From Vulcanimicrobiota bacterium (lineage in GTDB: Bacteria; Vulcanimicrobiota; JAJTBE01), in NCBI GenBank assembly GCA_021107945.1, contig JAIORV010000174.1, forward strand, positions 1 through 44,760: 44,760 nt of DNA. The letters are read 5' to 3'. Positions 4,409 to 23,406 of the stretch are shown here, piece by piece. The notes beneath the pieces were generated by a model, which was not told the DNA's origin, did not search any database, and saw only the letters and a list, made by a program, of their open reading frames with translations. Every line of letters starts with the position of its first letter. Position 1 is the first letter of the stretch. The translations under genes were made by a program, and so were the position numbers.

Positions 4409-4555
4409 AATTGCGTGAGTCCTGCTCATAAAACGATTCATGGATGACTATTCCTGCTTTCCTAATTTCCTTAGAGACATAACTTCCTGTTTTCCTTTTG
4501 CGAGTAGTTTATGTTATAATTTTTGAGATATGCTATGGAGGGAATGTATTTAGGT

Positions 4556-7516
4556 ATGACAGGAAGCAGAAAAAAACCAGACATTATTCCAAATAACAGG
4601 AACAAGCAATTTATAATAAGATTTGTCCGGGGAATCCTTATTGTTATTGTTGTTCTTGCATCTTTATCATTCTATTCCGGTTGTGAAAACAGGAACAAAA
4701 CAACTCCCTTCGTTGTTATTTACACTTCCAACCTACAGGGAAACGCCCTTCCGGGGCTTGTGGAGCAAGTCTCGGCCCATCAACCGGCTCATCATTTCTC
4801 TCAGACTCTGGAAATAATAAACCGCGTTAAAAAGGGGGACAAGAAGTCCGCCATTCTTCTTGATTCCGGCAATTCACTTGTGGGATTCGACGATTTCTCC
4901 TCAATGTTCAACGGAGATCCCATGATCGAGCTGATGAATATTGCCGGTTATGATGGAGTTCTTATCGCCGACAATCCGAATGTGGATGTCATAAAACTTC
5001 CCGACGCTCCCCCGTTTTTAAAAGCGGTGGGAGTGCCCGGTAAATCTCCCTGTATTGTGAAAAATATCGGCAATATTAAAATCGGAATTTTTTGCATAGT
5101 AGAAATAGGAGACGGTGAAGAAAAAGAAACCGAAAAATGGAAGAAGAATTCATCTAAAAGCACATTTTGCCCTGATTTTCAGGTTTTAAATAAGGCAGTT
5201 GCTGAGAAGAAAGCTGATTTCAATATTCTGCTTTGCCGGACAAACTTTATGGAGAAACTTACAGCAGAGGTAAAAGGAATAGACCTTATCATTCCGGGGC
5301 GGTTTCACGATGAGTTGAAATCAAGGGAGATAACGACAATAAACGGTGTCGCCGTCGCCCCGTATGTTGACTCGCGATTCAATATCGGCAAGATTGATAT
5401 TGAAGGAGATGATAAATTCAAATGCAGAATTATCCCCACGGGAGGAGCCGACGAGAGGCCTTCACAGGAAGTTATGAAAGTCCTGAGACCGTATATTGAG
5501 AAATTCCGCAAGAAATATCCCGACAATTATTCCACCGTTATATCCTCCGTAGTTGCATACGGAACCGATGACATGATACACAGGCTCGACTCACCGGGAG
5601 ATTCACCCACTGCCAATTTCATCACCGACGTCATACGAAAGGCCACAGGAGCGGAAATTGCCATTGTCAACCATCTTGCTTTCAGAAAAAACCTGAAGGG
5701 GACTATATCCACCGACAGGATAAGAGAGATTCTACCTTTCGAGAACGAGCTTGTTACAATAGATCTTACAGGTGAACAAATTGAAAGCATTCTCAAATCA
5801 AACGCAAAAGAGGGAAAGACGTTTTACCAGGTGAGCGGGATTGTGGTTGGTGTAGGAAATGAGGAAGGTGGGAATATATCCGCTAAGGAAATGAGGAAAG
5901 CAGGAAAGCAGGAAAAGGATCCCGCTTCCCAATCTGGGGTAATCATATCATACAACGGAAAACCCATCGAGAAAGATAAAACTTACCGGGTTGTAACGAT
6001 CGATTATCTCGTCAACTCCGACAAGGAGAAATATTCCACTTTCCGGGAAGCGAAAAACAGGAAATTCACCGGGATGATCATAAATATTGTGCTTTTTGAT
6101 TATCTGAAGGAGAATCCATATATTACCGCGCCTGCGGAGAGGATGATCATTGATGATGTTCTGTCTATACAAAAATTGATATCATCGACGAAAACACCTG
6201 AAATATTAGAAGTGGGAGGTTATGAGTTAAGAGGCAGTGTGACTATAAACAATGACAATGATATATATTTAAAAAACAGGAAAAGCTTCCTGAAAGTAAT
6301 ACCCGATGCTCAAAAAAAATTCGCCTGGAATCTTTTTACGGCAGTTATGCTTTTCAGGGACGGTAAGATTGACAAATCGAAAAAAGCATTCGAAAATTTG
6401 TTGAAAGAGCGTCCCGACAGCAGGCCGCTTCAGAAAATCACGGCATCGTTCCCGGAAAAGACATTGCCCGGTGAAGCTATATCCGGAAGAGTCCTCCAGA
6501 GAACATTCAGGGGAGATTTCAGGAGAACGGGAAGGAGTGAATATGCCGGAGCCACAAGAGGAAAGATTGCCTGGAAATTCCGGACGCATCATTCCATCCA
6601 GTCCTCACCGGTGATAGGACATGGCGGTGTGATATTCTGCGCCGCCGGTGACGGCCATTTATACGCCATAACACCGGAAGGAGCGAAGAAATGGTCGATT
6701 CGGCTGGGGAAAGTCCTTCTCGCATCACCGACTGTAACAGACAGGGGCGTTATATACACAGGGGCGGATAACGGGGTCATATATGCAGTTTCGCATACGG
6801 GCAAAATCTTATGGAAATATAAAACCGACGGATGGATAAAATCTACAGTCGCCATCGGACGGGACGGCACAATTTACTTCGGCTCCGACGACAAACACCT
6901 TTACGCCCTCACTCCCGCCGGAAAATTGAAATGGAAATTAAAAATGGGACACGAGGTTTTCTCATCTCCCGCTATCGGCAAGGACGGCGATATTTTCCTG
7001 GGATGCCTTGACAGGAATATTTATTGTGTATCCCCCGACGGAAAAGTAAAATGGAAATACCCGACGAAAGGCAAAATTTACTCGACCCCGGCAATTGCAG
7101 ACGACGGCACGGTATATGTGGGATCCGACGACAGCTTCATTTACGCCCTCACACCCGCCGGAAAATTGAAGTGGAAATACAAGACCGGCGGATTCGTACC
7201 GTCTTCCCCCGCTGTGGGAAAGGACGGAGCGGTCTATATCGGATCGGAAGACAACAACCTGTACGCACTCTCACCCGACGGAAAACTTCGCTGGAAATTC
7301 AAAACCGACTACGAAATATTCGGCTCCCCTGCAATAGACCGGGAGGGCAACATCTTCTTCGGATCCGACGACACATACTTCTACGCCCTGACACCGGGCG
7401 GAAAAATGATGTGGAAGGTGAAAGCGGCAAAATATATAGAGTCATCCCCGGCAATAGCAGACAACGGCACAATATACTTCGGAGCGGATGACGGGTTTGT
7501 GTATGCGGTGAAATAA
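4556..7516 (+). CDS. degenerate 5'-nucleotidase fused to 8-bladed PQQ-like beta-propeller, lipoprotein
   Basis: About 986 residues. The N-terminus has a hydrophobic helix ending in FYSGC, suggesting a lipoprotein signal although Tyr at -3 is unusual. Residues about 60-300 resemble the metallophosphatase half of 5'-nucleotidases, but usual metal-ligand motifs are altered: YTSNLQGN replaces the T-N-D-x-H-G motif and GRFHDEL stands at the GHxH site. The 5'-nucleotidase C-terminal domain follows (TANFITDVIRKATGAEIAIV, then EILPFENELVTIDLTGEQ). A TPR-like helix pair leads to eight PQQ-type blades (W-K-x-K-T ... SSPAIG-x-DG-x-I-Y-x-GS-x-D), nearest to the protein at 11134-12309. A repeat-derived peptide sits near nt 5885-5930. 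It is probably envelope-anchored and binding rather than catalytic. The start is uncertain: TTG 4523, ATG 4535 and ATG 4544 are in frame, and GGAGGG at 4537-4542 sits 13 nt from the chosen ATG. Confidence 0.85.
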   Translation: MTGSRKKPDIIPNNRNKQFIIRFVRGILIVIVVLASLSFYSGCENRNKTTPFVVIYTSNLQGNALPGLVEQVSAHQPAHHFSQTLEIINRVKKGDKKSAILLDSGNSLVGFDDFSSMFNGDPMIELMNIAGYDGVLIADNPNVDVIKLPDAPPFLKAVGVPGKSPCIVKNIGNIKIGIFCIVEIGDGEEKETEKWKKNSSKSTFCPDFQVLNKAVAEKKADFNILLCRTNFMEKLTAEVKGIDLIIPGRFHDELKSREITTINGVAVAPYVDSRFNIGKIDIEGDDKFKCRIIPTGGADERPSQEVMKVLRPYIEKFRKKYPDNYSTVISSVVAYGTDDMIHRLDSPGDSPTANFITDVIRKATGAEIAIVNHLAFRKNLKGTISTDRIREILPFENELVTIDLTGEQIESILKSNAKEGKTFYQVSGIVVGVGNEEGGNISAKEMRKAGKQEKDPASQSGVIISYNGKPIEKDKTYRVVTIDYLVNSDKEKYSTFREAKNRKFTGMIINIVLFDYLKENPYITAPAERMIIDDVLSIQKLISSTKTPEILEVGGYELRGSVTINNDNDIYLKNRKSFLKVIPDAQKKFAWNLFTAVMLFRDGKIDKSKKAFENLLKERPDSRPLQKITASFPEKTLPGEAISGRVLQRTFRGDFRRTGRSEYAGATRGKIAWKFRTHHSIQSSPVIGHGGVIFCAAGDGHLYAITPEGAKKWSIRLGKVLLASPTVTDRGVIYTGADNGVIYAVSHTGKILWKYKTDGWIKSTVAIGRDGTIYFGSDDKHLYALTPAGKLKWKLKMGHEVFSSPAIGKDGDIFLGCLDRNIYCVSPDGKVKWKYPTKGKIYSTPAIADDGTVYVGSDDSFIYALTPAGKLKWKYKTGGFVPSSPAVGKDGAVYIGSEDNNLYALSPDGKLRWKFKTDYEIFGSPAIDREGNIFFGSDDTYFYALTPGGKMMWKVKAAKYIESSPAIADNGTIYFGADDGFVYAVK

Positions 7517-7691
7517 AATGCAGACAGGCATGTATTGAAAGGGAAGTTGGGAAGAGTTTCTGCGGGTAAAGATAGTGGGAAGATCCAGGAAAAAGATGAA
7601 TAATAAAGAATAGGTAGCTGTCCACGGTTTTTATTAATTTCTACAGTGTTATCAGGGCTATTGGGCTATTTTAATTGTGAAGGGTAATGCA
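7517..7691. other. intergenic gap at the left edge of the AT-rich island
   Basis: About 175 bp between the propeller gene and the HD-domain gene. I see no terminator hairpin and no dispersed repeat. Base composition becomes clearly more AT-rich from about 7615 onward and stays so to about 11110. Confidence 0.4.
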
Positions 7692-10454
7692 ATGAAGATT
7701 TATGATTTACTTAACCCTGAATGGCAGAGATCAATAAATAAAATTCAAGAGTTAGCAAAAAGGGAGTTAGATAAAATTGTAATGTTTTTTCCTGATTTCT
7801 CAGATCATTCTTATGAGCATTCAGAAAAGCTAATTCAAATTATTGAGCGTTTGTTGCCAGAAAAATCACTAAAATCGCCAGATAATAGCCCAGATAATAA
7901 CCTTAGCATAGATGAAGTGGAAAAATTCCTAATTTTAGCAGGATGTTATCTACACGATCTTGGCATGGTGCCTTCTCAAACACAAATTGATCAAGGTATT
8001 ACTCAGGAGATAAAAGATGAAATAAGAAAAAACCACCATAAGATAATAAGAAATAGACTAAAAGAAAATAAATACAATCTTGACTTGGATCATCACATTT
8101 TGAATTATTTGGGGGATATATGTTATTATCACAGGGGTGAAGAAGACTTATCAAACGTTCGGGTTGAAGTAAACTACGAACTTTGTACAAGAGGAATACG
8201 TTTACAGTTCATTTGTACCTTAGTCAGATTAGCCGATGAATGTCATTTAACTTTTGACCGCGTACAAAAACTAACAGAAACATATAGGCACTTAAGTGAA
8301 GAATCAAAAAAACATTTTTTAAAACATTACAATACATCAGGTATGAGAATAACTGATGAAAATCTTGAAATAGCGTTTGATATAAATACCCCAAGAGATA
8401 AAGAAATTTTTGAAAATATGGTTAAAGAAAAGGTTGAAAAAGAATTTCAAAGATTAAGGACATTTTTAAGAATTGATAATCTTTGTAAATTGCGATATAT
8501 CCAATGGCAATTGAATGAGACAGGTGTATATAAAGCTATTACAATTGACGAAGTGCATAAAGAAATAATTAAATACTTATTATCAGGCGAAAGAACGTAT
8601 GAAGAGATAATCGTTTTTCTTACAGAAAAATATGAAGAGAATTATGACGAGCACGATTTCAGGGAAATACTAAGGGAAATACTAAGGTATTTAGTTGAAG
8701 AAAAATATATTACAGAGAACAATGGTTTATACCTATTTCCCCAAAAATTCAGTGTTCAGTTATTAAGAGAATATTGCAGGATTTTTTCCAAAAACGGCAT
8801 CATTGATGATGGATTTTTCTATAATAATCATTTCCAGGAGCTGCTGGAAAGTGAGATATTTAATACACTCGTTAATTTTTATAATTGCAAATATACTCCA
8901 GCAGAAAAACCAGACCGGATTGAATTATTAAAGGATTTTCCAAGTATTTTATATTTTTCTCTATTTGGAGATCAAAATGTAGATAATTATGGTTTGCTAA
9001 ACTGCGAAAGACTGCTTGATGCTTACTTCTTATTAGGAATGCTTGTGGACTCTGTAAGAAACCCAATCCTTCTAAACAGACGAATGGGTCAATTATCAAA
9101 CTGCTCAAGTATTTTAGAGGATTTGCAGAAAAAATTGCCGGATTTTCATTCGCTTCTAATAGAGCTAACAAAACTTATGAATTTATCTATGGAAGAGGTT
9201 AACAGAATCTTTTTTTCAGGAAAAGAAGAAAATATCCCCAAGGAAAAAACTATTGAATTTACTTTGAGGCTAAAACATAAAGCCTGTTATTCTCACCTGA
9301 CATTTCCATACCTTTCAATTGCATACCATAGAGCAAGATTACCCTTTATGATAAATGATGAATATATTGAAAATATTATAAGCAAAGATATACCTTATCT
9401 TGAAGGCTCTGATAAATCTGGAAATATGACAATCACAATGATGCCATATAAGACGAAAAAAGCCAATTTAAAGATAGAGGGGAAAACTACATGTAATTTA
9501 ATTGCAAATACCGAAACAGAACGGGCACTTATTAGATTTAATTCCAAGTGCAATTTTGATTTTAAAAATTATCCTTTTGGAGTTATGGCTGCCATTACCG
9601 CTACTGAAATGAATATGAATATGAATATGAATATGAACTTCGGACTTGATTTGTTCTTTATGGAGCCGAGAGATTATTTAAGACTCATTAATTTTATTGA
9701 TGGAAAGAGCTATAGAGAAATTAAGTTTATTGATGGTGAGACAGGAGACGATATTGGTATTTCGAAAGATATGGAAATGAAATTAAAAAATATTGAAGAA
9801 GAAGAAAAAAATACTATTAGAGCATTAGCCTTATTTCAAGAGAGAGTAAACAAATCATTTCCATTGCCAATTACCACATTACATTTGTCCAAGAATATAA
9901 CAGATAAAATATTAGATATCAAATACCTCCAACAAGCGACTGATAGTGAACTGGAAGCTATATATGAAGAAATAAGCTATTCAAAAAAACCAAACTTCAT
10001 CATTACTGGGATTGTCTTGTATAATGAAAATCTGAAGATGACTGATTATTATTTCTTTGCTCCTACGCCAGGAAATATCAATTTTAAGTTCTCTGATAAG
10101 CAAAGGAAAAACTTTATTAAAAGGATAAAATCTATTGATGAAAATATAGATGAAGCTGATATAAATAATCTATTGTTATTTGAAGGAGAGCCTTTCAAAG
10201 TAAGTGACTCTGCAAGCTCGTTATTCAAAAAGACAATAGAATATATCAGAAAAAACAAGAATATACCTGGTGATAAATATTATAAGGATCTAAATGGAGC
10301 AGGAGAGTCTTATATTACATATTTTACTGATCTGCTAAGAGATAAATTTTGGGAGAAGCGGCGGCTTGTTATCATTAATATTTTCTCAAAACTAACTGAA
10401 GATGATATTAAAAAGCATAAATATAGATTTATGGAGTTACATGATTCTCTTTAA
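7692..10454 (+). CDS. large HD-domain protein (HD-CE-like) of unknown function
   Basis: About 920 residues. The N-terminal 270 carry an HD-type phosphohydrolase signature: DHSYEHSEKL with H39 and H43, the doublet in CYLHDLGM (H88, D89), further histidines at about 115, 134-135 and 147, and D182 in VRLADECHL. This layout matches the HD-CE type of domain often found in bacterial conflict or signalling proteins, where it would cleave a nucleotide phosphoester. Residues about 286-352 look like a winged helix. The remaining 560 or so residues match nothing I know. In-frame copies of a 6-bp repeat give MNMNMNMNMN near nt 9608-9638. The start is the ATG at 7692 behind AAGGGT (GTG 7677 also possible). 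It is much more AT-rich than its neighbours and lies beside a toxin-antitoxin pair, which suggests horizontal acquisition. Confidence 0.8.
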   Translation: MKIYDLLNPEWQRSINKIQELAKRELDKIVMFFPDFSDHSYEHSEKLIQIIERLLPEKSLKSPDNSPDNNLSIDEVEKFLILAGCYLHDLGMVPSQTQIDQGITQEIKDEIRKNHHKIIRNRLKENKYNLDLDHHILNYLGDICYYHRGEEDLSNVRVEVNYELCTRGIRLQFICTLVRLADECHLTFDRVQKLTETYRHLSEESKKHFLKHYNTSGMRITDENLEIAFDINTPRDKEIFENMVKEKVEKEFQRLRTFLRIDNLCKLRYIQWQLNETGVYKAITIDEVHKEIIKYLLSGERTYEEIIVFLTEKYEENYDEHDFREILREILRYLVEEKYITENNGLYLFPQKFSVQLLREYCRIFSKNGIIDDGFFYNNHFQELLESEIFNTLVNFYNCKYTPAEKPDRIELLKDFPSILYFSLFGDQNVDNYGLLNCERLLDAYFLLGMLVDSVRNPILLNRRMGQLSNCSSILEDLQKKLPDFHSLLIELTKLMNLSMEEVNRIFFSGKEENIPKEKTIEFTLRLKHKACYSHLTFPYLSIAYHRARLPFMINDEYIENIISKDIPYLEGSDKSGNMTITMMPYKTKKANLKIEGKTTCNLIANTETERALIRFNSKCNFDFKNYPFGVMAAITATEMNMNMNMNMNFGLDLFFMEPRDYLRLINFIDGKSYREIKFIDGETGDDIGISKDMEMKLKNIEEEEKNTIRALALFQERVNKSFPLPITTLHLSKNITDKILDIKYLQQATDSELEAIYEEISYSKKPNFIITGIVLYNENLKMTDYYFFAPTPGNINFKFSDKQRKNFIKRIKSIDENIDEADINNLLLFEGEPFKVSDSASSLFKKTIEYIRKNKNIPGDKYYKDLNGAGESYITYFTDLLRDKFWEKRRLVIINIFSKLTEDDIKKHKYRFMELHDSL

Positions 10455-16710: not shown

Positions 16711-17082
16711 GAAGCACCTCCGTATAAAATAAATCAAAAGTCGGAAGTCGGAATCGGTTTTTCAATGGATGGAATTAAAAAAGAAAAATTATGATATGAA
16801 AATAAATCTTTGTTTTCCTGCTTCCGCCGTTTTTGTTTTTTGTTTATGGTAAAACAACTTAGAATAAATGCTCCCCTGCCGGGAGTATTCCTGCTTCAAT
16901 TTCCCCTGACTTTGTTTCTCAAGTTCGGATAATTCTTTCCCGAGTTTCAAGGAATAATTTTCTTGCATATTCAATGGAATGAAAGAATACCCTTTTTATA
17001 TATAATTTGATGAAATAAAAATAAAGGATAAAAGTATAGTATATTGCAAACTATAATACAGACAATTTCCGGAGGTGCAGGG
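16711..17082. other. divergent intergenic region, likely promoters
   Basis: 372 bp between two divergent genes. It is AT-rich, with TATAAT at 17001-17006 and 17052-17057, but neither has a convincing -35 box at proper spacing. A minus-strand frame of 61 codons (16789-16974) has no ribosome site and I do not call it. A short family D trace (AAGTCGGAAGTCGGAATCGG) is near 16738. Confidence 0.4.
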
Positions 17083-20000
17083 ATGAAAACACTAAAAACG
17101 CTTCTTATCATCACAATTATATCATGCTCGTTTTTTCTTATGGGATCTAACGGATGCACGACATCATCGTACATCCCCGGTTACGAGGTAAGAGTCCTGG
17201 GGAATGATACTTTCCTGTCGGGAAGCCAGGGAGCGATGAGAATTATCACATACAACCCCGGGGATCAAAATCCCGTGGCTGATGTCCCGGTTCGGATATT
17301 CCTCCAGGGGGAGAAGAAAAAAGTTGGAGATAAAACGGGATCCGGCGTGGCAGCACCTGAAAAGAAGAATCCCGGTGAGGAGAAAGCTCCCGACTCCGCA
17401 GATAAAAAGACGGGAAGCGAGAAGGGAAAGGAAGATGTCCACGATTACGGCGATAAAGTATTCCAGGGAATAACGGACAAGACAGGGTCCCTCGATGCCG
17501 CTTTCAAGATACCGGAAGAGATGATGGGTAGTGCGAAGCTGACCATTGTAACAGGACTTGAGGGAAAGACACAAAATATTCCCATACAAATAAATGTAAA
17601 GAAAAAATTCAAGATATATCTCACGACAGACAAGCCCCTGTATCAACCGGGGCAAATCATAAACATAAGAGCGTTATCCCTGAACACTCCGAGCTTGAAG
17701 CCTGTGGCGGAGAAAGAAATTGTCCTTGAGGTTGAAGATGCAAAGGGGAACAAGGTTTTCAAGAAAAAATCGAACACCTCCAAATTTGGAATAGCCCATG
17801 CAAAATTCCAGTTGGCGGACGAGGTAAATATGGGGGAATTCCATATAAGGGCACTCCTGGACAGAGAATCATCGGAGAAAAGTGTTACGGTCAAAAAATA
17901 TGTTCTTCCAAAATTCAAGATAGACTTCAAAAAAAATAAGAAATTCTACACTCCCGGCGAGACAATAAAAGGGGAGATCCAGGCGGATTATTTCTTCGGG
18001 AAACCCATTTCCGGGGGAAAAGTATCGATAAAGCTCTTCACGTTCGACGTTGAGTTCAAATCCGCCGCCGAGGTCAAGGGCGTTACGGATAAGAAGGGGC
18101 ATTATTCATTCGAGCTGAAGATCCCCGATTATCTTGTGGGGCAGCCGCTTGAAAAGGGCGGGGCAATGGCGAAAATGGACATTGAGATCACAGATGCCGC
18201 AGGGCAAAAAGTGAAAAATGTCAAGAAGATCCCCATAAGTAAGGATTCGTTAAAGGTTCAGCTAATCCCGGAGAGCGGTGCATTGAAACTTAACCTGGAA
18301 AACAGGATATTTCTTCTCTCGAGTTACCCCGACGGCTCGCCTGCAAAAACATCCACAACACTAACGATAAAATTTCAGGATTCGAAAGTCAGTGAAAATA
18401 TCCAGGTTTTGAACACCGATGAGGCCGGTATCGCCACATTCAACCTGAAACCACCGGACACGAAACCGATAACCGTTCAGATATCAGCGATCACAAAAAA
18501 AGGTGATAAACTCGAGACAACGCAGAGTCTATCTGTTACCCGACAGAAGGAAAACGTGATTCTTCGCACCGACCGGGCGGAATACAATGTCGGCGACACG
18601 ATGAACCTGGAGATTCTCTCCACAAAGGGCAAAGGAAGCTATTACCTTGACGCTATAAAGGATCGCCAGACCATTCTGACAAAGGCGTTTGATGTGGATT
18701 CTACCCGGTATAAGAGTACTATGGATATTACTCCCGACCTTGCAGGGTTAATTACACTGAGCATATATAGGATTACCGGTAAGAATCAGATTATTCGTGA
18801 CAGGAGAAATATATTTGTAAGAAGTGCCGATGACCTGAAAATATCGGCCGCTCCTGACAAACCTGAGTACAAACCCGGTGGTGATGCAAAAATCACATTT
18901 ACCGTAACAGATAAATCCGGCAAGCCGGTCATAGCGGCAATGGGCGTTGATATCGTTGATGAAGCGGTATTCGCCCTCGGAGAGATGATGCCGGGACTGG
19001 AAAGAGTATATTTCCTCCTTGAAAAGCAATTGATGGAGCCAAAGTATGAGATACATGGGATAACGCTGAGGGAAGCTATAATGCCGACCAAGCAGATCAA
19101 ACAGGATCAGCAAATTATCAGGCAGATTCTGTTTGCAAAGATTCCCACAGAAGAGAAATTCAGCATAAACATTGATACATATAAAAAGAAAATTCAGGAA
19201 TGTTACCGAAAGATGAGCTCGGTAATGAACGGGATGCATGAATATTACAGGAAGTATAATAAGTATCCCACAACCGGCGATCTTGACAATATGGTGAAAG
19301 AAGGACTGATAAAAGAAAAGGATGCAATCGACCCCTGGGGACATAAATTCTATCTGATGCCGCAGGAGAAAGGCCAAAAATTTCCCGAGATCAAATCCGC
19401 CGGACCCAATGGCAAGATAGGGGACAAGGATGACCTGATACTGAGCGATCTACAGAAAAAATATGTCTTATTTGATAATACCGGGTTGGTTGACAGGGAT
19501 TCGGTACCGGTTAGAGCCATGAAAGGGGGATTCGCTCCGCGGCCCGCGGCCAAGATGGAAGCTGGAGAGATGCACAAAGATAAAATGGAAGCACCCGCCG
19601 GCTCAGAAGGAGCCGGCAAGAAACCCGTTCGCGTCAGAGAGTACTTCCCCGAAACACTTTATACAAACCCGCAAATCATAACGGATGAGAAGGGAAATGC
19701 AGAGATAGGACTGAAAATGGCGGACTCCATCACAACCTGGAGAATGTCGGTATTCGGTAACTCCGCAAGTGGGAAAATGGGCAACCTGCAGAGCGGAATA
19801 AAAGTATTTCAGGATTTCTTCATTGACATAGATTTCCCCGTGGCGCTCACGAGAGGCGATGAGATTTCAGTGCCGATTGCCGTCTATAACTACCTCAAGG
19901 AACCGCAGACAGTGAAGATCAAGGTTGAAAAAGAAGACTGGTTTGAAATGATGGACGGCGTGTTCGAAAAAGAGTTGAAACTCCAGAAAAACGAGGTTAA

Positions 20001-21726
20001 GGGAGTCAATTTCAGGATTAAAGCTAAAAAGCTTGGCAAACACAAACTTACAGTATATGGATACGGCTCAAAAATGGAGGATGCAGTACGAAGAGAGATT
20101 GAAATCCTGCCTGACGGAAAAATGTTCATGCTCAGTAAGAGCGACAAAATTCAACAGGAGATCAATGTGCCGGTCAATATCCCGAAAGGAGCCGTCAAAG
20201 GGGCGTCCAAAATCCTCGTCAGGCTCTATCCGGGAGTTATATCCCAGGTGGTGGAGGGACTGGACAAGATATTGCGCATGCCATGCGGATGCTTCGAGCA
20301 GACATCTGCCTCCACATACCCCAACGCCCTCGTGTTGGAATACCTGAAAAAACAGAAGAAGGTAACTCCCGAGATACAGATGAAAGCAGAGGGATACATA
20401 AACACAGGTTATCAAAAGCTTGTCAGCTTCGAGGTTCAGGGCGGAGGCTTCTCCTGGTTTGGTACCGCTCCCGCGAACAGGGTTCTGACGGCGTTTGGCG
20501 TGATGGAATTCTGTGATATGGCAAAGGTTCATGATGTTGACGAGAACCTGATTGACCGCACCCGGAGATGGCTTGCAGCACAGCAGAACAAGGACGGCTC
20601 CTGGAGTCCCGACAAAAACTACTGCCATGCGGAGAGTTGGGCGAAGATGCAGGGCGGTGGAAAGATCCCCGTAACTTCATATATCGTATGGGCATTGGCG
20701 GAATCGGGACACGAGGGAGAGGATCTGAAAAAGGGAATGGCTTTCTTAAAGAAAAAAGCCGGCGATCTGAATGACCCATACGTCCTCTCGCTTGCCTGCA
20801 ACGCATTTGCCACGGTGGAACCTGAAAGTCAATTCACAGCGGAATTGATAAAGAAACTTGCCAAAAAAGCAAAGATAACGGCAGGTGAAGCATACTGGGC
20901 GACAGGCATACAGACCGGGACATTTTCCAGGGGCAAATCAGCGAACATCGAGACAACCGCCCTTGCGACACTTGCATGCCTTAAAGTGAAAAGATATGAG
21001 AACCTCGCGAGCAAGGGGATAAGCTTCCTCGTTAAAAACAAAGATCCATACGGAACCTGGGGCACAACGCAGGGGACGATCCTTGCAATGAAAGCGTTGC
21101 TGACGGCACAGGATAAGGCGACACAAAAGGTAAACGCAAAAGTGAAGATAACAGTGAACGACGAGAGGAGCGAGGAGTTCGAAGTTACATCAGAAAACTA
21201 CGATGTATATCGCCAGGCGGACTTCGGCGATGTAACGAAAAACGGGAAAAATAAAGTAACTATAACAATCTCCGGCGAGGGTTCCTGCTACTACCAGGTG
21301 GCGACGAGATACTACATGCCCTGGGGAGATATGGCGAAGAAGAAAAAGCCTCTCTCAATCGGCGTGAAGTATGACAGGACAAAGCTGAAAGAGAACGACA
21401 TGCTCACCAATACAGTAACAATCCGGAATAATACGAAAGCTTATATGAAGATGGTAATGGTTGACCTGGGAATCCCCCCCGGATTCAGCGTGATGACTCC
21501 CGATCTGAATGAGCTTGTCGGCAAGAAGTTTATGAAATACTCAATGACATCAAGACAGATTGTCATATACATAGAAACAATGAAACCCGGCGAGAACTTA
21601 CAATTCAAATACAGACTGAAAGCAAAGTTCCCGTTAAAGGCGAAGACACCGAGATCGAAGACATACCAGTATTATAACCCCGATGTTAATGATGTAACAA
21701 AACCTGTGATGCTGGAGGTTGATTGA
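17083..21726 (+). CDS. alpha-2-macroglobulin family protein with GspG-like domain in the bait region
   Basis: A 1547-residue exported protein. The ATG at 17083 has a strong GGAGGTG site. The signal peptide ends near C25 (SNGC), a possible but atypical lipoprotein site. MG domains follow, interrupted by a charged Lys/Glu insert (about 85-128); the MG2 motif TDKPLYQPGQ is at about 180. MG6 (VDIVDEAVFALGEMMPGLER) leads into the bait position, where residues about 693-794 look like the C-terminal domain of GspG pseudopilins: YYRKYNKYPTTGDLD, DPWGHKFYL, SAGPNGKIGDKDDLIL. An Ala/Pro/Met-rich stretch (about 812-849) then meets the canonical REYFPETLYTN junction. The thioester motif is CFEQ (C1070-Q1073), followed by the alpha/alpha toroid and a receptor-binding-like C-terminal domain. 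By family analogy it traps proteases that cut the bait, probably in the periplasm or on the surface. The GspG insert is the odd part. Confidence 0.92.
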   Translation: MKTLKTLLIITIISCSFFLMGSNGCTTSSYIPGYEVRVLGNDTFLSGSQGAMRIITYNPGDQNPVADVPVRIFLQGEKKKVGDKTGSGVAAPEKKNPGEEKAPDSADKKTGSEKGKEDVHDYGDKVFQGITDKTGSLDAAFKIPEEMMGSAKLTIVTGLEGKTQNIPIQINVKKKFKIYLTTDKPLYQPGQIINIRALSLNTPSLKPVAEKEIVLEVEDAKGNKVFKKKSNTSKFGIAHAKFQLADEVNMGEFHIRALLDRESSEKSVTVKKYVLPKFKIDFKKNKKFYTPGETIKGEIQADYFFGKPISGGKVSIKLFTFDVEFKSAAEVKGVTDKKGHYSFELKIPDYLVGQPLEKGGAMAKMDIEITDAAGQKVKNVKKIPISKDSLKVQLIPESGALKLNLENRIFLLSSYPDGSPAKTSTTLTIKFQDSKVSENIQVLNTDEAGIATFNLKPPDTKPITVQISAITKKGDKLETTQSLSVTRQKENVILRTDRAEYNVGDTMNLEILSTKGKGSYYLDAIKDRQTILTKAFDVDSTRYKSTMDITPDLAGLITLSIYRITGKNQIIRDRRNIFVRSADDLKISAAPDKPEYKPGGDAKITFTVTDKSGKPVIAAMGVDIVDEAVFALGEMMPGLERVYFLLEKQLMEPKYEIHGITLREAIMPTKQIKQDQQIIRQILFAKIPTEEKFSINIDTYKKKIQECYRKMSSVMNGMHEYYRKYNKYPTTGDLDNMVKEGLIKEKDAIDPWGHKFYLMPQEKGQKFPEIKSAGPNGKIGDKDDLILSDLQKKYVLFDNTGLVDRDSVPVRAMKGGFAPRPAAKMEAGEMHKDKMEAPAGSEGAGKKPVRVREYFPETLYTNPQIITDEKGNAEIGLKMADSITTWRMSVFGNSASGKMGNLQSGIKVFQDFFIDIDFPVALTRGDEISVPIAVYNYLKEPQTVKIKVEKEDWFEMMDGVFEKELKLQKNEVKGVNFRIKAKKLGKHKLTVYGYGSKMEDAVRREIEILPDGKMFMLSKSDKIQQEINVPVNIPKGAVKGASKILVRLYPGVISQVVEGLDKILRMPCGCFEQTSASTYPNALVLEYLKKQKKVTPEIQMKAEGYINTGYQKLVSFEVQGGGFSWFGTAPANRVLTAFGVMEFCDMAKVHDVDENLIDRTRRWLAAQQNKDGSWSPDKNYCHAESWAKMQGGGKIPVTSYIVWALAESGHEGEDLKKGMAFLKKKAGDLNDPYVLSLACNAFATVEPESQFTAELIKKLAKKAKITAGEAYWATGIQTGTFSRGKSANIETTALATLACLKVKRYENLASKGISFLVKNKDPYGTWGTTQGTILAMKALLTAQDKATQKVNAKVKITVNDERSEEFEVTSENYDVYRQADFGDVTKNGKNKVTITISGEGSCYYQVATRYYMPWGDMAKKKKPLSIGVKYDRTKLKENDMLTNTVTIRNNTKAYMKMVMVDLGIPPGFSVMTPDLNELVGKKFMKYSMTSRQIVIYIETMKPGENLQFKYRLKAKFPLKAKTPRSKTYQYYNPDVNDVTKPVMLEVD

Positions 21727-21744: not shown

Positions 21745-22215
21745 TTAGAATTCCCATTTCTCTCTTTCCATGAATCCTTCTAAATTTGTACATTCTATTT
21801 TGAAGTACTTACAGACATTTGGTATCTTTGCGGCGTTTTCTTTAAATTTTTCTTCGGTTACTACACAGGCATTTTTTATTTTGGCAGATGCAATTACAAA
21901 TGGGTCTGCCACCGTTCCCCCTTTTAATATTTTCTTCTGATCTACCAAATCACGAAAATGTTGAATGCGAAAAATCTCATTGACAAATTTTGTTTCTTCC
22001 GGACCGGGAATCAGAAATATCTTTTTATTTAAATATATCCAATCACTCAAGTGTTTCTTCGATATATTGTTATCTAATTCATGATAGACTTCCCGTACCG
22101 ATAATATTTTATTCTTTAATACCATCTCATCGAAATTCCTCCAGAATGAAGGAAAACGTCCTGGAAAATAATGACCTGCCACAATAAAACTATTGGTATC
22201 AAAAATATAAATCAT
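21745..22215 (-). CDS. PIN-domain protein, DUF4411-like
   Basis: A 156-residue protein with PIN-type acidic residues: IYIFDTNSFI at the N-terminus, EVYHELDN near residue 45, VTEEKF, and TVADPFVIASAK. It resembles the DUF4411 branch of PIN ribonuclease-like proteins, often encoded next to an XRE/ImmA-type protein as here. The likely role is a toxin or RNase regulated by its neighbour. The ATG at 22215 has GAGGTGA upstream; a TTG at 22218 is the alternative. The start is 3 bp after the stop of the upstream gene, so the two form one operon. Confidence 0.8.
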   Translation of the reverse strand: MIYIFDTNSFIVAGHYFPGRFPSFWRNFDEMVLKNKILSVREVYHELDNNISKKHLSDWIYLNKKIFLIPGPEETKFVNEIFRIQHFRDLVDQKKILKGGTVADPFVIASAKIKNACVVTEEKFKENAAKIPNVCKYFKIECTNLEGFMEREKWEF

Positions 22216-22218
22216 CAA

Positions 22219-23406
22219 TCACCTCGATTTCCTTGACATAATAAAATCCTCCAGTGCCGGAATATTTTTTTCCTTAATATTCAAATAACCTGCAAGTTGT
22301 TCAATAGTACAACGCCCTTGATAATACCTATTGAATGCTTGTGTGAGGAATTCTTCGCCAAGGTAAGTAGCCTGTGTGGCATAATAATTTCCGCCACCTT
22401 TACCACTTTGTTTGTCTTTTGTCTTTTTTATATATTCTGCATTCCATTGGCTTGCCTTGTATTCACACAGTTCCCTGTCAATTTTTCCGGCATCCAGTAA
22501 TTTCCTGAGAATTACTTCGCGGCTTACTTTATAATGCATTGCCATTTTATTCGCAAAGACCTCGATGTCTTCATTCACAAAAGTTCTATCAATTCTGTGT
22601 CTAAAATCCTCATATGGGACTAGAAACTCCGAAGCAAATTTATTACAGAAAACTTCAATGTCTTTTGAAACTCCCGAAAGCGAATCTATATATCTATCAT
22701 ATGGAATTGTAATACCGTTTATTTTTAATAGAATGTGAGACAATTCATGAAAAATAGAAAAAATCTGACGAGTCGCTGTTGTGCTATTGTTTAGGTATAT
22801 CACAGGGAATTCTTTGTCTGTAAGACAAAAACCGGAAATGCCTTTTTCTTTGAAAGACCTCTTGAAAACAAAAACACCCTTATCCTGAATAACTTCTCTC
22901 CATTGATTCAACGCATCCCTGGAACTTCCCCATTCCACCTGTTTCTCAAGTGAAATTCCCAGGTAGTCTCTTACCTTATTCGTTTCAACCGATAAGTCCA
23001 GATGAAAATCGAGTTGAATATCTCGAAAGACTTTTTGCGGGGATGGATTGATACCATCATTCAATTCAGCAAGAGCTATCTGCATTGCCTTTGCCTGACG
23101 AATTGCATAAAGGGTATCGGGTGATAGTTGATCAATTTTAAAACTGGGCAATGTTCTGAATTTTTGCCTCACATCGGGTTCAGGAGGAGGTTCTGGAAAG
23201 AAAAAAAGAGCGATAGGACGTTTGTAAATCTTGTTCGCAAGTTGTTCTAATTGAATATAAGTCGGTACACTTTTCCCGGATTCCCATTCCCTGATAACGT
23301 CAATCTTCTTTTTTATTTTTTGGGCTATTTTATCTAAAGAATAGCCAGACTTTTCTCTTGCCCATTTCAAAATTCCTGGATTTATACCTTCAGTATAATT
23401 AACCAT
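22219..23406 (-). CDS. XRE-family regulator with ImmA/IrrE metallopeptidase domain
   Basis: A 395-residue protein. Residues 10-65 are an XRE helix-turn-helix (WAREKSGYSLDKIAQKIKKK ... WESGKSVPTYIQLEQLA). A zinc peptidase domain follows with HELSH at 220-224 and a downstream glutamate near 251 (EVFCNKFASEFLVP), the ImmA/IrrE arrangement. Such proteins bind DNA and cleave a repressor or partner. It lies upstream of, and nearly contiguous with, the PIN gene and probably controls it as an antitoxin-like partner. The start ATG at 23406 has AAGGAATGG upstream. Confidence 0.88.
   Translation of the reverse strand: MVNYTEGINPGILKWAREKSGYSLDKIAQKIKKKIDVIREWESGKSVPTYIQLEQLANKIYKRPIALFFFPEPPPEPDVRQKFRTLPSFKIDQLSPDTLYAIRQAKAMQIALAELNDGINPSPQKVFRDIQLDFHLDLSVETNKVRDYLGISLEKQVEWGSSRDALNQWREVIQDKGVFVFKRSFKEKGISGFCLTDKEFPVIYLNNSTTATRQIFSIFHELSHILLKINGITIPYDRYIDSLSGVSKDIEVFCNKFASEFLVPYEDFRHRIDRTFVNEDIEVFANKMAMHYKVSREVILRKLLDAGKIDRELCEYKASQWNAEYIKKTKDKQSGKGGGNYYATQATYLGEEFLTQAFNRYYQGRCTIEQLAGYLNIKEKNIPALEDFIMSRKSR

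Follow-up and report, generated by a model that had tools for sequence, protein, structure and literature searches.

A GspG-like pseudopilin domain between the LNK-like segment and the probable bait of a bacterial alpha-2-macroglobulin

The window analysed here, a stretch of 44,760 nucleotides from a Vulcanimicrobiota bacterium (contig JAIORV010000174.1), carries a gene for an alpha-2-macroglobulin (A2M), a kind of protease trap akin to animal A2M and complement C3, of the short, eukaryote-like type (17083..21726, forward strand, as are all features of this gene), recognised from its open reading frame, its Pfam domains and its PDB alignment. Within the MG6 insert of this otherwise intact protein, which holds the LNK-like segment and the bait, lies, in frame, the C-terminal domain of GspG, the major pseudopilin of type II secretion, and the order LNK-like segment, GspG-like domain, bait linker and REYFPET junction is well supported. 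The mechanism that we infer and on balance favour is that a single ancient insertion placed the domain between the LNK and the bait of an exported thioester A2M, where it would act as a calcium-stabilised plug or cap, in analogy to the anaphylatoxin domain of complement.

Identity of the inserted domain

The GspG-like soluble pseudopilin domain (T2SSG, PF08334), defined by profiles, AlphaFold and Foldseek, occupies residues ~711-803 of the protein (19174..19452) and is enclosed by the span 19159-19463 that the original prediction, made from the letters alone, had assigned to it. The segments YYRKYNKYPTTGDL, DPWGHKFYL and SAGPNGKIGDKDDLIL are read in frame with VDIVDEAVFAL on one side and REYFPET on the other. 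The Pfam T2SSG profile, a search proposed with that prediction, matched the segment with 27.0 bits (E 5e-6) against a curated cut-off of 21, and in a scan of the whole protein it scored 20.3 bits, just under the cut-off. Among the 81 homologues of the insert alignment 57 matched T2SSG individually at E<=0.01, the best at 4e-9. We then used this alignment as a profile, and HHalign against nine genuine GspG sequences from related genomes returned a probability of 98.5% (E 1.9e-15) over a match that spans helix 1, YP, DPWG and the calcium loop. Searched against all PDB chains with hmmsearch, the 81-row profile matched eight distinct sequences, every one of them a GspG, with enterohaemorrhagic Escherichia coli GspG (3g20, 8.2e-9) as the best and PulG, XcpT and EpsG also among the matches; the window segment alone gave nothing useful against PDB with phmmer.

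Structure prediction and comparison with GspG led to the same assignment. A model of the MG6-to-thioester-domain part (8 rows) reproduced the GspG-like domain well, and because MG matches swamped its fold search a second model was made of the insert alone. AlphaFold modelled residues 714-803 with block values of the predicted local distance difference test score (pLDDT) of about 94-98 over the core, and in Foldseek the major pseudopilins took ranks 1-11, 14 and 15 with probability 1.00. The first matches include 3gn9, 4lw9, 3fu1, 3g20 and 5o2y, at target-normalised template modelling scores of 0.54-0.66, and type IV pilins are found as well. The predicted fold is that of a pseudopilin, and chance resemblance to GspG is excluded. 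The two outcomes that would have spoken against the original prediction, a different fold and the lack of a significant profile match, were thus both decided in its favour.

With GspG (PulG, EpsG, XcpT) the domain shares the second half of helix 1, the YP(T) motif, DPWG and the calcium loop S-x-GPDG-x-x-T-x-DD[I/V/L]. It differs from GspG in that the long loop before DPWG is about 10 residues shorter, in being embedded in an exported protein of 1,500 residues, and in that neither a prepilin leader nor a hydrophobic N-terminal helix is found ahead of it in the window protein, which therefore shares a domain with GspG and is not itself a pseudopilin.

The scaffold around the domain is intact, as had been proposed for the thioester motif and the domains downstream of it. 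Matches over the Pfam cut-off follow in order for MG2 (PF01835, 17611..17883), MG3, the bait region domain A2M_BRD (PF07703, 18562..18978, with the VDIVDEAVFAL strand at its end), the A2M domain (PF00207, 19669..19923), the thioester domain (PF07678, 20236..21099) and the receptor-binding, C-terminal MG domain (PF07677, 21448..21693), with MG4 just below it. The thioester motif GCFEQ (20287..20301), placed by the family alignment, has its CFEQ invariant in all 81 sequences that cover the site. The segment between A2M_BRD and the GspG-like domain (MPGLERVYFLLEKQLMEPKYEIHG..., 18985..19143), which we call LNK-like by analogy with the LNK of A2ML1 (PMC9156758), is strongly conserved in the family (P650 99%, G651 100%, F657 99%, E660 96%). 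The open reading frame runs from 17044 to 21726 (1,560 codons), TTG 17044 being its mechanical start and ATG 17083, preceded by ggaggt, the probable one; residue numbers follow the open reading frame unless stated. From the ATG the sequence MKTLKTLLIITIISCSFFLMGSNGC (17083..17157) reads as an N-terminal export signal, possibly but not clearly that of a lipoprotein, and a hydrophobic N-terminal stretch is present in 59 of 65 full-length homologues.

Position of the bait and comparison with known macroglobulins

LNK and bait of animal A2Ms together make up a single insert in MG6, and the bait of A2ML1 has been mapped experimentally to Ser695-Asp726 (PMC9156758). Our alignment with A2ML1 begins at residue 819 of the window protein, counted from the ATG and thus 13 lower than in the open reading frame numbering, and at residue 681 of the chain, with a deduced chain offset of 18. 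The A2ML1 chain reads ...HQAED immediately before SQVRQYFPET, so its bait ends just before a junction shared with the RVREYFPET of the window protein (19630..19656), which the family alignment marks as the C-terminal end of the bait and the beginning of the conserved part. The equivalent of the mapped bait is therefore the linker of residues 804-862 (19453..19629), with which it aligns, and not the GspG-like domain. This linker is hypervariable across the family alignment, ranges in length from 36 to 98 amino acids (median 61) and is enriched over the whole protein in Met (x3.4), Ala (x2.0), Gly (x2.0) and Pro (x1.6); it is modelled as disordered, with a pLDDT of about 46-55 over its C-terminal part. 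Conservation, pLDDT, composition and the A2ML1 alignment thus make it the probable bait, and the earlier suggestion that the domain had been swapped in for the bait is not supported, since the linker is retained behind it.

Across MG2-MG3, and again from the bait to the receptor domain, the nearest solved relatives of the window protein are animal A2Ms (A2ML1, A2M, CD109 and insect TEP1). They have in common with it the thioester and an MG6 insert with LNK and bait, and judging from its length and matches it is, like them, a single chain that lacks the two additional MG domains found at the N-terminus of the enterobacterial proteins. It differs from them in being bacterial, in having CFEQ in place of CGEQ and in carrying the GspG-like domain between LNK and bait. 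The enterobacterial A2Ms (E. coli ECAM, Salmonella) are bacterial thioester protease inhibitors (PMC4498604, PMC9156758), and none of them is among the 60 best PDB matches of the window protein.

In complement C3, C4 and C5 the bait slot of the MG6 insert is likewise filled by a folded domain, the anaphylatoxin domain, which takes the place of the bait (PMC9156758). That domain is disulphide-bonded and helical, whereas the fold here is GspG-like and the bait linker is kept; a Pfam scan of the window protein gave no anaphylatoxin match, with neither a furin site nor release shown. The shared position in the MG6 insert (PMC9156758) would suit an arrangement in which a dedicated protease cleaves the GspG-like domain as the actual bait and sets it free like an anaphylatoxin. 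We regard this as improbable, as the domain is well folded and conserved, whereas it is the hypervariable linker following it that aligns with the A2ML1 bait, and as release would need a second, upstream cut, for which no site is evident, though no search was aimed at one.

Distribution of the family and relation to type II secretion

The source genome encodes five A2Ms, two of which have the domain, namely the window copy and one on contig C32. Orthologues occur in six further genomes of the source phylum, and a profile taken outside the domain found the clade in 7 of its 149 genomes. Among named genomes 322 relatives were found, of which the best 80 were kept and the 242 weaker ones left out. 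The domain is present in all 80 of these best homologues (77 by pattern and three by eye), a count that is no unbiased census because the query that ranked the homologues contained the domain, although the patterns used to search for them lay outside it. Whether other phyla share the fusion had been left open in the original prediction, and they do: the genomes with the domain are labelled Armatimonadota, WOR-3/Stahlbacteria, Planctomycetota, Hydrogenedentota, Poribacteria, Cloacimonadota, Acidobacteriota, Myxococcota/Deltaproteobacteria, Zixibacteria and others, with the nearest named relatives of the window labelled Bacillota, Chloroflexi and Armatimonadetes. An assembly chimera is ruled out, as independent genomes of several phyla show the identical order. 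A tree built from the region that follows the bait separates the A2Ms with the domain from two other A2Ms of the genome, with 100% support in the Shimodaira-Hasegawa-like approximate likelihood ratio test, which fits a single acquisition of the domain.

GspG-like domains were also seen in other settings. One A2M (L114:4989-6035) apparently has two of them in tandem before the bait, the first with DAW and without a calcium loop. Outside the A2Ms, a TPR-CHAT protease-like protein 1,086 amino acids long (L162:214-3471, G002:C54) contains in its N-terminal part a GspG-like domain that scores 72.5 bits, and a protein of 998 amino acids (L163:9-3002, G195:C11) has one near its C-terminus, followed by ankyrin-like repeats, which represents another soluble use of the domain.

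In order to relate the family to type II secretion systems (T2SS) T2SSG was searched in 50 genomes. In 12 of them (G156, G158, G168, G176, G177, G184, G186, G188 and G190-G193) the A2M is the only credible match, and five of these are closed WOR-3 chromosomes (CP070664, CP070686, CP070834, CP070802 and CP070795). A search for GspD in nine of the 12, the closed five included, gave none over the curated cut-off, only lower-scoring secretins as type IV pili would give. As no credible T2SSG match other than the A2M was found in the 12 genomes, the domain persists without a T2SS. Across the homologue loci no T2SS genes recur beside the A2M, and its neighbours are not conserved beyond local synteny in WOR-3 and a few Hebobacteria.

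These results bear on the earlier suggestion of a secretion-linked role, in which the domain would dock on the T2SS or its pseudopilus and the trap would guard the machine or be secreted by it. The homology of the domain to GspG speaks for such a device, as does the presence of a genuine GspG in many of the genomes, that of the window included, which also has GspD. With a dozen genomes in which the domain is kept and no other credible GspG is found, with no GspD over the cut-off in the nine searched, with T2SS genes not recurring next to the A2M and with the domain devoid of the hydrophobic N-terminal helix that polymerises pseudopilins, we consider it very improbable.

Conservation, calcium and the proposed mechanism

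Conservation was computed over up to 83 sequences. The most conserved residues of the GspG-like domain are DPW and the calcium loop (S-x-G-P-D ... D-D), with D763 at 100% and W765 at 92% in the DPWG motif (19330..19341) and S785 at 93%, G787 at 100%, D789 at 96%, D796 at 100% and D797 at 99% in the loop. The loop positions correspond to the calcium site of GspG, with the ligands as reportedly assigned by Korotkov 2009. The acidic loop that had been noted in the window protein (SAGPNGKIGDKDDL, 19396..19437, with D/N789, D796 and D797 as putative ligands) is thus conserved across the family, and the domain probably binds calcium. In GspG, according to a review, alteration of the coordinating aspartates dramatically impairs the T2SS (PMC10574481), and PulG misfolds into a domain-swapped dimer when calcium is lacking (PMC6692295).

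An effect of calcium on the trap is plausible. In one such reading loss of calcium would unfold the domain and expose more of the bait or free its end, so that calcium arms or fires the trap, a possibility favoured by the near-invariant site and by the misfolding of PulG (PMC6692295). Structural calcium of this type is usually constitutive, however, there is no sign that the protein encounters calcium at concentrations close to the affinity of the site, and one ligand is Asn in the window protein, which leads us to think such gating unlikely.

The calcium-stabilised plug or cap that we favour would work as follows. After export the domain would fold, as PulG does, with the calcium of the periplasm or of the cell's surroundings, and the folded domain between LNK and bait would then plug or cap a monomeric trap. 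A protease would cleave the exposed linker downstream of the domain, after which the C-terminal end of the bait would retract and the thioester would capture the protease. In A2ML1 this end is threaded through a channel made with LNK, MG2 and MG3, and its retraction after cleavage initiates the conformational change (PMC9156758). LNK would keep the domain attached to the N-terminal fragment and so close to the captured protease, over which it may form a lid, as a monomeric trap needs.

Several points, in addition to the ranking of homologues described above, weigh against this reading. Protease trapping, calcium binding and the role as plug or lid are all inferred, and the models of the MG6-to-thioester-domain part and of the insert alone do not separate plug from lid. 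Residue 789, a putative calcium ligand, is Asn in the window protein, although it possibly could still serve as an oxygen ligand. The best Foldseek E-value is a modest 1.8e-3, owing to the disordered flanks that form part of the insert model. Finally, two A2Ms (L045 and L047), of which one is only a short fragment, are placed within the clade, though weakly supported there, and lack the domain, its slot being occupied by an insert with several transmembrane helices, and the domain is therefore replaceable.

That insert (L045:3026-4249, G017:C35; L047:268-1455, G003:C2) matches no Pfam family over the cut-off. Its last transmembrane helix ends in a pilin-like manner, VPNFLRARGGG or APNFLKARAQG, and a pilin of one of the two genomes (L160 of G003) has VPNFLKARAQG. 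In the more distant A2Ms L049:2172-7208 and L024 several transmembrane helices likewise lie in the bait slot, which seems to accept different inserts.

Such tolerance, seen in L045 and L047 and in the tandem domains of L114, would be expected if the domain were a neutral spacer, an ancient insertion without function of its own in a permissive loop. Its key residues are nonetheless kept at 92-100% in very diverged homologues and it persists across phyla, so we give this explanation little credence. A broader joint proposal, which we put forward only tentatively and with less confidence than the plug or cap itself, is that a complement-like arrangement evolved independently in bacteria, with a folded, calcium-dependent plug of pseudopilin origin that would hold the bait in place and gate the thioester, the whole belonging to a single ancient family that spans many phyla and is independent of secretion.

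The literature searched, which left out most subscription journals, contained no description of a macroglobulin-pseudopilin architecture. Both the A2M scaffold and the GspG domain are known; as far as we have seen it is their arrangement, its age and its breadth that are apparently undescribed. Bacteria, like vertebrate complement, have filled the bait slot of an A2M with a folded domain, though one of unrelated fold, and this provides another example in which to ask how that slot governs the conformational switch. A pseudopilin domain is here also retained apart from any secretion system. Many of the phyla that have the family are poorly known, and its carriers include closed chromosomes and a metagenome-assembled genome labelled Chthonomonas calidirosea, for which a cultured type strain exists.

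In the window the genes that neighbour the A2M are accD/accA, a DUF4411 gene and an HTH-M78 gene. The latter two, DUF4411 and the IrrE-like HTH-M78 gene, lie side by side at 21748-23406 on the reverse strand in a toxin-antitoxin-like arrangement. Further genes on the forward strand encode an HD-CE/HD domain protein of 925 amino acids (7677-10451) and a protein of 997 amino acids with a 5'-nucleotidase C-terminal domain and a beta-propeller (4523-7513).
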